52,726 bases of DNA. Origin: Deltaproteobacteria bacterium (lineage in GTDB: Bacteria; Desulfobacterota; BSN033; UBA1163). The notes beneath the pieces were generated by a model. The model saw only the letters and a list, made by a program, of their open reading frames with translations. It ran no database searches and was not told where the DNA came from. The stretch's first letter is position 1, and every line of letters starts with the position of its first letter. Positions 8,033 through 40,862 of the stretch are shown in pieces. The DNA is taken from NCBI GenBank assembly GCA_016874935.1, contig VGSS01000004.1, positions 1-52,726 of the forward strand. Direction: 5' to 3'. A program made the translations under genes and the position numbers.

Positions 8033-9538
8033 ATGGGCCGCTACATCATGGCTCTCGATCAAGGGACGACCAGCTCGAGAACACTCATTTTCAACAGTGA
8101 AGGCGACATCGTTTCATCGTCCCAGCAGGAATTCAAACAGATCTATCCCCGACCCGGCTGGGTGGAACACGATCCCGAGCAGATATGGACCTCCCAGCTC
8201 CAAACGATCCGGGAGGCGCTCGACAGGGCAAACTTAAAGGCCGGCGATATCTCTGCGATCGGGATCGCCAACCAGCGGGAGACCATGGTCCTCTGGGACC
8301 GCCGAACGGACAAGCCGATATACAACGCCATCGTCTGGCAGTGCCGAAGGACCGCTAACTTCTGCAAAGAGCTTCAGGAGGAAGGATTCGATACCAAACT
8401 GAGGGAGAAAACCGGACTGGTCACAGACGCCTATTTTTCCGGGACCAAGCTCAAATGGGTCCTCGACCATGTACCCGGGGCGAGAAGAGATGCGGAGAAA
8501 GGCCACCTCGCCTTCGGCACCATCGATAGTTGGCTTGTAAACAGGCTCTCGGGGGGCAAGGCACACGTCACTGATTACTCTAACGCCTCTCGAACGCTCC
8601 TGTACAATATCCATGATCTGAGATGGGATGACGAGATCCTGAGGCGCTTTGGCATTCCTCCGTCCCTCCTTCCCGAGGTTGTGCCTTCCAGCCATCCCGC
8701 GGCTTTCACCGACCTAAAAATCTTGGATGCAACCATTCCTATTGCCGGGATCGCCGGAGATCAGCAGGCGGCCCTCTTTGGCCAGTGCTGTTTCGATCCG
8801 GGCATGGTTAAGACCACTTACGGGACAGGCTGTTTCATGCTCATGAACACCGGCCAGGAGGCTAAACCCTCGGAATCCGGCCTCCTGACCACCATCGCCT
8901 GGGGGATGGGAGGGGAAATCACCTACGCGCTTGAAGGAAGCACTTTCATCGCCGGCGCCCTCATCCAGTGGCTGAGAGACGAACTGAAGCTGATCCGCTC
9001 TGCCGAGGAGAGCGAACAGTTGGCATCGATGGTAGAGGATTCAAATGGAGTTTATATCGTCCCAGCCTTTGTCGGATTGGGCGCTCCCCATTGGGATCCC
9101 CATGCCCGCGGCGCTATCCTGGGACTGACGAGGGGCGTCAACCGGAGCCATCTCGTGCGGGCGGCGATTGAATCGATTGCTTTTCAGACCAAGGAGGTTG
9201 TTGACTGCATGGTCCACGATTCCGGCCTTGGCCTAACGGAGCTGAGGGTAGATGGGGGTGCCGCCGCCAATAATCTGCTCTGCCAGTTTCAAGCCGACCT
9301 TCTTGGCATCCCCATCAGGCGGCCGAAGGTTCTCGAAAGCACGGCTCTGGGAGCCGCTTACTTAGCCGGGCTTGCCGTCGGGTTCTGGGGAAATAGAGAA
9401 GAAATCTCAGCCAACTGGACCATGGGGCGGGAATTCATTCCCCGGATGTCTGAGGATAGGCGGAGGAAGCTTGTCATGGGGTGGGAACGGGCAGTAGACC
9501 GCTCGAAGAGCTGGGTCTCTCCAGAGCAGGAAGGATGA
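8033..9538 (+). CDS. glpK: Glycerol kinase
   Basis: This 501-residue FGGY-family kinase starts [17 protein letters not shown] and has the expected length. Glycerol-kinase hallmarks include [38 protein letters not shown] and [20 protein letters not shown]. It phosphorylates glycerol with ATP to sn-glycerol 3-phosphate in the cytoplasm. GGAGGAGAAAG lies just upstream of the ATG. It follows a lipase-like gene, and the pair suggests glycerolipid or glycerol use. No glycerol facilitator or glycerol-3-phosphate dehydrogenase is in the window. Confidence 0.97.
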
Positions 9539-40215: not shown

Positions 40216-40304
40216 TTTCGACCTCTTTTGACTGCATCATAATTCAAAAAATATGAATAATCAATATTGATGAACTTGTAAAAAGTCCGAAAGCCTCTTT
40301 CCCC

Positions 40305-40404
40305 GTCATTCCGGCCCCGATTTTCATCGGGATAAACTCCAGCCGGAATTCAGTTATTTCAAGAATTTATCAAACCTCTGGACTCCGGTTTTTACCGGAG
40401 TGAC
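40305..40404. repeat. Bipartite palindromic repeat, copy 2
   Basis: GTCATTCCGGCCCCGATTTT followed by CATCGGGATAAACTCCAGCC, a spacer, then CTCCGGTTTTTACCGGAGTG and AC. Copy 3 at 45962-46061 is the same element inverted, with matching module sequences. It lies upstream of the rhodanese gene. Confidence 0.75.
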
Positions 40405-40505
40405 GACTTTTTACGAGACAATCAATATTCAAGTAGAGTCAAAAATAAAGTGCATTTGATTAAACTGTGGGTTATAAAAAATAATCCCAACAAAGGAGGA
40501 TGAAT

Positions 40506-40862
40506 ATGACCGAACCTGAACGCATCTCACCGGAGGAAGCTCACCAGAAGCTGAAAGCCGGCGAAGCCCTGCTTGTCTGCGCCTACGAGGATGAGGAGAA
40601 GTTTAAGAAGGTGAGGCTGGAAGGGGCCATCTCACTTGGCGAGTTTAAATTGAGACTGGACTCTCTCACCAAAGATCAGGAAATTGTTTTTTACTGCGCG
40701 TGACCCCAGGAAAAGAGCGCTGCCCGTGAGGCAGTAAAACTGATTGCCTTGGGATTCGAGAAGGTTGAATGCCTCGCCGGGGGCGTGGAGGCATGGAAAA
40801 GATCTGGCTACCCCATCATCAAAATCGGAGAGCCTGAATCTCTACTGTCCTCAGACAAATAA
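40506..40862 (+). CDS. Rhodanese-domain protein with in-frame UGA (probable selenoprotein)
   Basis: AAAGGAGG is directly before an ATG at 40500, so the ATG at 40506 is the better start. The frame reads MTEPERISPEEAHQKLKAGE up to VFYCA, then TGA at 40701. It continues without loss of homology as PQEKSAAREAVKLIALGF, then VECLAGGVEAWKRSGYP, to a TAA at 40860. Together this is a complete 118-residue single-domain rhodanese. Homologues have Cys at the UGA position (YCxCP), so residue 66 is probably selenocysteine, two residues after Cys64 in the active-site loop. A SECIS-like hairpin follows at the correct distance. Sulfur, selenium or redox chemistry is inferred. The alternative is a nonsense-mutated gene. 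Confidence 0.75.
40705..40753 (+). promoter_or_regulatory. Candidate bacterial SECIS element
   Basis: Fifteen bases after the UGA an upper stem GCTGCC/GGCAGT (40719-40724 with 40730-40735, five Watson-Crick pairs plus one G-U) carries the loop CGTGA, with G in the second loop position. A lower stem CCCAGG (40705-40710) can pair with CCTTGGG (40747-40753) with one bulge. Size, distance and loop G fit the loose consensus of bacterial SECIS elements, which lie inside the coding region just after the UGA. Confidence 0.55.

Follow-up and report, generated by a model that had tools for sequence, protein, structure and literature searches.

A probable SelB-decoded rhodanese with selenocysteine two residues past the catalytic cysteine, and its clade of C-x-U and U-x-U relatives

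The analysed window, i.e. the whole stretch of 52,726 nucleotides from contig VGSS01000004.1 of an uncultured bacterium of the Desulfobacterota, contains an open reading frame of a 118-residue single-domain rhodanese (positions 40506-40862) with one in-frame TGA and a terminal TAA, which very probably represents a functional selenoprotein gene decoded with the participation of SelB. The probability of this reading is estimated at about 0.92, a figure that refers jointly to the gene, its decoding, and the position of selenocysteine (Sec), the catalytic role being outside it. The conceptual translation reads MTEPERIS...VFYCA-U-PQEKSAA...LSSDK, where Sec66 is located two residues past the canonical catalytic Cys64 and forms with it the C-x-U motif of the active-site loop. 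At UGA codon 66 the ribosomes would insert Sec owing to the SECIS hairpin, which lies 15 nt past this codon and serves to recruit SelB together with tRNA-Sec. A selenocysteine-containing rhodanese was already proposed in a preliminary description of this DNA, and the proposal is now supported by the TGA of the homologues, by covariation within the SECIS hairpin, and by the presence of selA, selB, and selD.

Table 1. Sequence features of the Sec-rhodanese locus (window positions).
Feature	Position	Strand	Basis and remarks
Shine-Dalgarno GGAGG	40495..40499	+	6 nt upstream of ATG 40506; direct reading
Sec-rhodanese gene, 118 residues, TAA stop	40506..40862	+	Frame, Pfam profile, homologues
Cys25 codon, VCAYED motif	40578..40580	+	Clade-invariant; replaces Asp of the usual rhodanese DxR
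Cys64 codon, canonical rhodanese catalytic position	40695..40697	+	TGA in 15/81 homologues
Sec66, in-frame TGA, codon 66	40701..40703	+	TGA in 81/81 homologues
Bacterial SECIS-type hairpin	40719..40735	+	Begins 15 nt past the UGA; invariant loop G, covariation; stem GCUGCC 40719-40724, loop CGUGA 40725-40729, GGCAGU 40730-40735

The preliminary description placed the in-frame TGA inside the rhodanese active-site loop and followed the homology on both sides of it to a proper TAA. Both statements were borne out, as the frame is unbroken and the Pfam rhodanese profile PF00581 crosses the TGA without interruption (residues 8-99, 41.1 bits versus a cut-off of 22.2). Homologue searches among relatives, in 395 genomes of the phylum, and in 84,980 species genomes resulted in 81 distinct members of a subfamily, which was recognised by VCAYED on the N-terminal side and by FYC-A-U in the active-site loop; the query carried Cys at codon 66, and this codon lay outside the patterns used in the widest scan. 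In the phylum search 26 genomes contained a clear member (at least 90 bits), the next matches being other rhodaneses at about 71 bits. Codon 66 was TGA in all 81 distinct homologues, which belong to several phyla, and Cys at this codon was found in 0/81 subfamily members. Thus, of the two residues anticipated for the homologues, Cys or Sec, the comparison returned Sec throughout, with no unrelated residue, while the claim that relatives have Cys at the TGA position had to be corrected: close relatives have Sec, and Cys occurs only outside the subfamily, for example in L027 (match 1498-1812), a Cys counterpart with the motif YCDCP from the wider CxU-type group.

The closest same-genus homologues revealed purifying selection on both sides of the TGA, with pN well below pS: for L013 these values were 0.046 and 0.33 in the 5' part and 0.151 and 0.56 in the 3' part, respectively, and for L014 they were 0.061 and 0.38 in the 3' part. 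The hairpin with a loop G 15 bases after the UGA, noticed earlier in the single sequence, proved to be present, conserved, and covarying across the homologues. The window hairpin does not stand out by folding energy alone (z = -0.91; a competing fold exists), so the case for it rests on comparison. In the homologues the spacing between the UGA and the stem is constant, and the loop G is retained in 80/80 sequences. Pair 17-29 is formed by two silent third codon positions and was paired in 78/80 sequences (types T-A, C-G, G-C, A-T, and T-G), while the expectation from 1000 shuffles was 53.6 on average and 60 at maximum, these shuffles ignoring relatedness and the rarer types G-C and A-T falling in different phyla. 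Such covariation would be hard to explain otherwise than by an RNA element.

According to these data the supposition that an ordinary Cys rhodanese was damaged by a nonsense mutation or a sequencing error, and is thus a pseudogene or an artefact, has a negligible probability. A single change converts TGC or TGT to TGA, and selC is missing from the bin, which would fit it; but the TGA shared by 81/81 homologues in independent assemblies, the covarying hairpin, and the purifying selection past the TGA refute both the pseudogene and the sequencing error, the latter being very unlikely already because the same TGA recurs in independent assemblies from many organisms.

The host genome was also to be checked for the Sec genes: it contains selA (626 bits), selB (371 bits), and selD (388 bits), while the 91%-complete bin yielded no selC. 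In the host selD (L055:1840-2766, G000:C187) residue 11 of the match is encoded by an in-frame TGA, so that the gene probably specifies a Sec-containing selenophosphate synthetase. In the host bin selC was detected neither by Rfam nor by ARAGORN, the latter run on the stretches with selA and selB; a selC query taken from the same genus, a pattern (too strict by one base for the genus), and the region syntenic with that of G003 gave negative results as well. In eight same-genus genomes tRNA-Sec was detected with 76-83 bits, and since the bin consists of 206 contigs and is 91% complete, the missing gene is most simply explained by a gap. Further, selB was present in 20/20 high-quality genomes carrying the Sec-rhodanese gene and was not detected in two other carriers, G005 (88% complete) and G099 (85%). 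In the latter genome, without detected selB, the frame of the clade member (L080, G099:C18) breaks soon after the TGA and the remainder lies in another frame, so this is a frameshift or decay.

A reading of TGA as some other amino acid, e.g., Trp, due to an altered genetic code or to general readthrough has in its favour solely that the frame is open once the TGA is read. This explanation was rejected and is given almost no weight, since 13/30 long open reading frames of the window end in TGA, which argues against global reassignment, while selA, selB, and a Sec-containing selD are present and in the wider family Cys is the residue aligned with codon 66 (L027).

Among the named families the closest one is NF041203 (rhodanese_LYCAU, CxU), which corresponds to the "rhodanese-like domain-containing protein form 3" (CxU, TKB26178.1) and is a listed predicted selenoprotein (PMC13188914, PMC9312934). 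The single rhodanese domain and Sec two residues past the catalytic Cys are common to this family and the window protein; however, its cut-off of 115 bits was reached neither by the window protein (64.6) nor by five clade members (51-64), while L030, L081, and L031 exceed it. Also, the clade has Cys25-Ala-Tyr where L030 and L081, which pass the NF041203 cut-off, possess the usual Asp-Val-Arg. A tree computed after masking of residues 64-66 places seven outgroup rows, of LYCAU and related types, outside the clade with an SH-aLRT value of 99, a separation that holds for the outgroup sampled; the inner forks are weak due to the few alignment columns. Since standard gene calling would stop at residue 65 and the NF041203 cut-off is unreached, genes of the clade are likely to be mis-annotated.

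Other Sec rhodaneses include forms 1, 2, and 4 (UxxS, UxxG) and TsoB (UxxxxU) (PMC13188914). They share with the window clade a rhodanese domain containing Sec and differ in its position and motif, as the clade has its Sec at C+2 and mostly retains Cys at the catalytic position. The string "UxU" has zero occurrences in the text of the 2026 review (PMC13188914). GlpE and other Cys rhodaneses (PDB 1gmx, 3nhv, 3tp9) have the same fold by sequence and model comparison but contain neither Sec nor a Cys/Sec pair in the active-site loop, and their Asp-x-Arg (aligned for 3nhv) stands where the clade has Cys25-x-Tyr27.

Codon 64 encodes Cys in 66 and is TGA in 15 of the 81 homologues, giving C-x-U and U-x-U forms, respectively. 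The distribution of Cys and Sec at this position requires nine changes on the tree; the starred branches alone force only one change, so repeated switching between Cys and Sec is likely, not proven. Records of the clade members belong to Thermodesulfobacteriota, Nitrospirota, Acidobacteriota, Methylomirabilota, Planctomycetota, and Synergistota, and those of the U-x-U members to the last five of these phyla as well as to the phylum of the host; as most U-x-U records are metagenome bins, single odd placements may reflect contamination. In G005, a genome of the same genus, a C-x-U and a U-x-U (NUGU) copy (L015/L056) are located about 730 bases apart (G005:C127:7849-8163 and 8894-9208). Cys25 is kept in 81/81 members, always as TGC or TGT, in a set defined partly by CAY/CGY/CAH; in a check of all matches above 85 bits no other residue at position 25 was found among members.

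Two further rhodaneses with YUAU and YCAU motifs, L031 (match 1501-1824) and L036 (match 1501-1761), are followed by in-frame CxxCH-type haem motifs (CVDCHTK, CIDCHTK) and may be Sec rhodaneses fused to a multihaem cytochrome; L031 combines the double-Sec motif with a score above the NF041203 cut-off.

CxU-type Sec rhodaneses as such have been known before, so the finding is less surprising, while the features that appear as new at the level of sequence are the separate clade, the added invariant Cys, the lack of a Cys form at the Sec position, and the substantial U-x-U minority. The chances are about even that these proteins constitute a distinct family with an obligatory Sec at C+2, with either Cys or Sec as the catalytic residue (C-x-U, U-x-U), and with an invariant third Cys.

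The AlphaFold model (pLDDT 85.5) has a rhodanese fold, and its top PDB matches are rhodaneses, including GlpE and 3nhv. Rhodanese active sites sit at strand ends, and in the predicted model strand 21-25 ends with Cys25 and strand 59-63 is immediately followed by Cys64, so both residues are placed where such sites are expected; by sequence alignment Cys25 stands in place of Asp and Tyr27 in place of Arg of the usual DxR. In this single-domain rhodanese three chalcogen residues are conserved: Cys64, which is the usual nucleophile of rhodaneses, Cys25, and Sec66. In the proposed mechanism Cys64 would take up sulfane sulfur or an oxidised group, Sec66 would resolve it with formation of a Cys64-Sec66 selenenylsulfide, and Cys25 might act as a relay or a third ligand. 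Tentatively, the protein may thus be a reducing sulfur-transfer or persulfide-type oxidoreductase and not a simple thiosulfate:cyanide sulfurtransferase.

This sulfane-sulfur or persulfide redox role is preferred, with the same caution, to soft-metal binding and to selenium delivery, for both of which the gene neighbourhood has to be considered. Within the genus the gene lies divergently beside queF and an arsenate-reductase-like gene, while no conserved neighbour was found outside the genus in 53 loci; the best neighbour cluster, an ABC-type ATPase, occurs at merely 5-6 loci of these 53 neighbourhoods and at variable distance. The Sec-rhodanese gene behaves as a stand-alone gene, and its neighbourhood, not being conserved outside the genus, gives no pointer to the substrate. 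Upstream of the gene, window positions 40263-40429 are repeat-like, and pieces of them match a repeated stretch found on many contigs of the same genome.

A soft-metal or metalloid binder, in which Cys25, Cys64, and Sec66 form a thiolate/selenolate site for mercury, arsenic, copper, or similar elements and the rhodanese scaffold is devoid of sulfurtransferase activity, seems rather unlikely. The location of a third invariant Cys where the neighbouring strand ends, the Cys/Sec swap at position 64, tolerable for a ligand, and the adjacent arsenate-reductase-like gene and queF within the genus would agree with it, as would the fact that Sec may serve as a metal-binding ligand in other families (2026 review, PMC13188914); however, the arsC-like neighbour is not kept outside the genus. 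Less probable still is a carrier of selenium or sulfur passing Se on to selenophosphate synthetase, i.e. a selenoprotein supporting the supply of its own element. A carrier function for selenium has been discussed for rhodanese-type proteins, the SelD of the host likewise contains Sec, and the gene is accompanied by selB, but no recurrent neighbour tied to the Sec machinery was observed in the 53 neighbourhoods, and several same-genus genomes with tRNA-Sec have no match to the gene at E <= 1e-15.

Many bacterial selenoprotein families have Cys versions, suggesting that Sec is often an improvement and not a need, while the fact that none of the 81 members has Cys at the Sec position suggests a chemistry in which sulfur may be insufficient. 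If the family is truly obligate for Sec, this would mean a sulfur or redox chemistry strictly needing selenium at a second, non-canonical position, and the natural Cys/Sec switch at the catalytic position would provide C-x-U and U-x-U enzymes ready for comparison.
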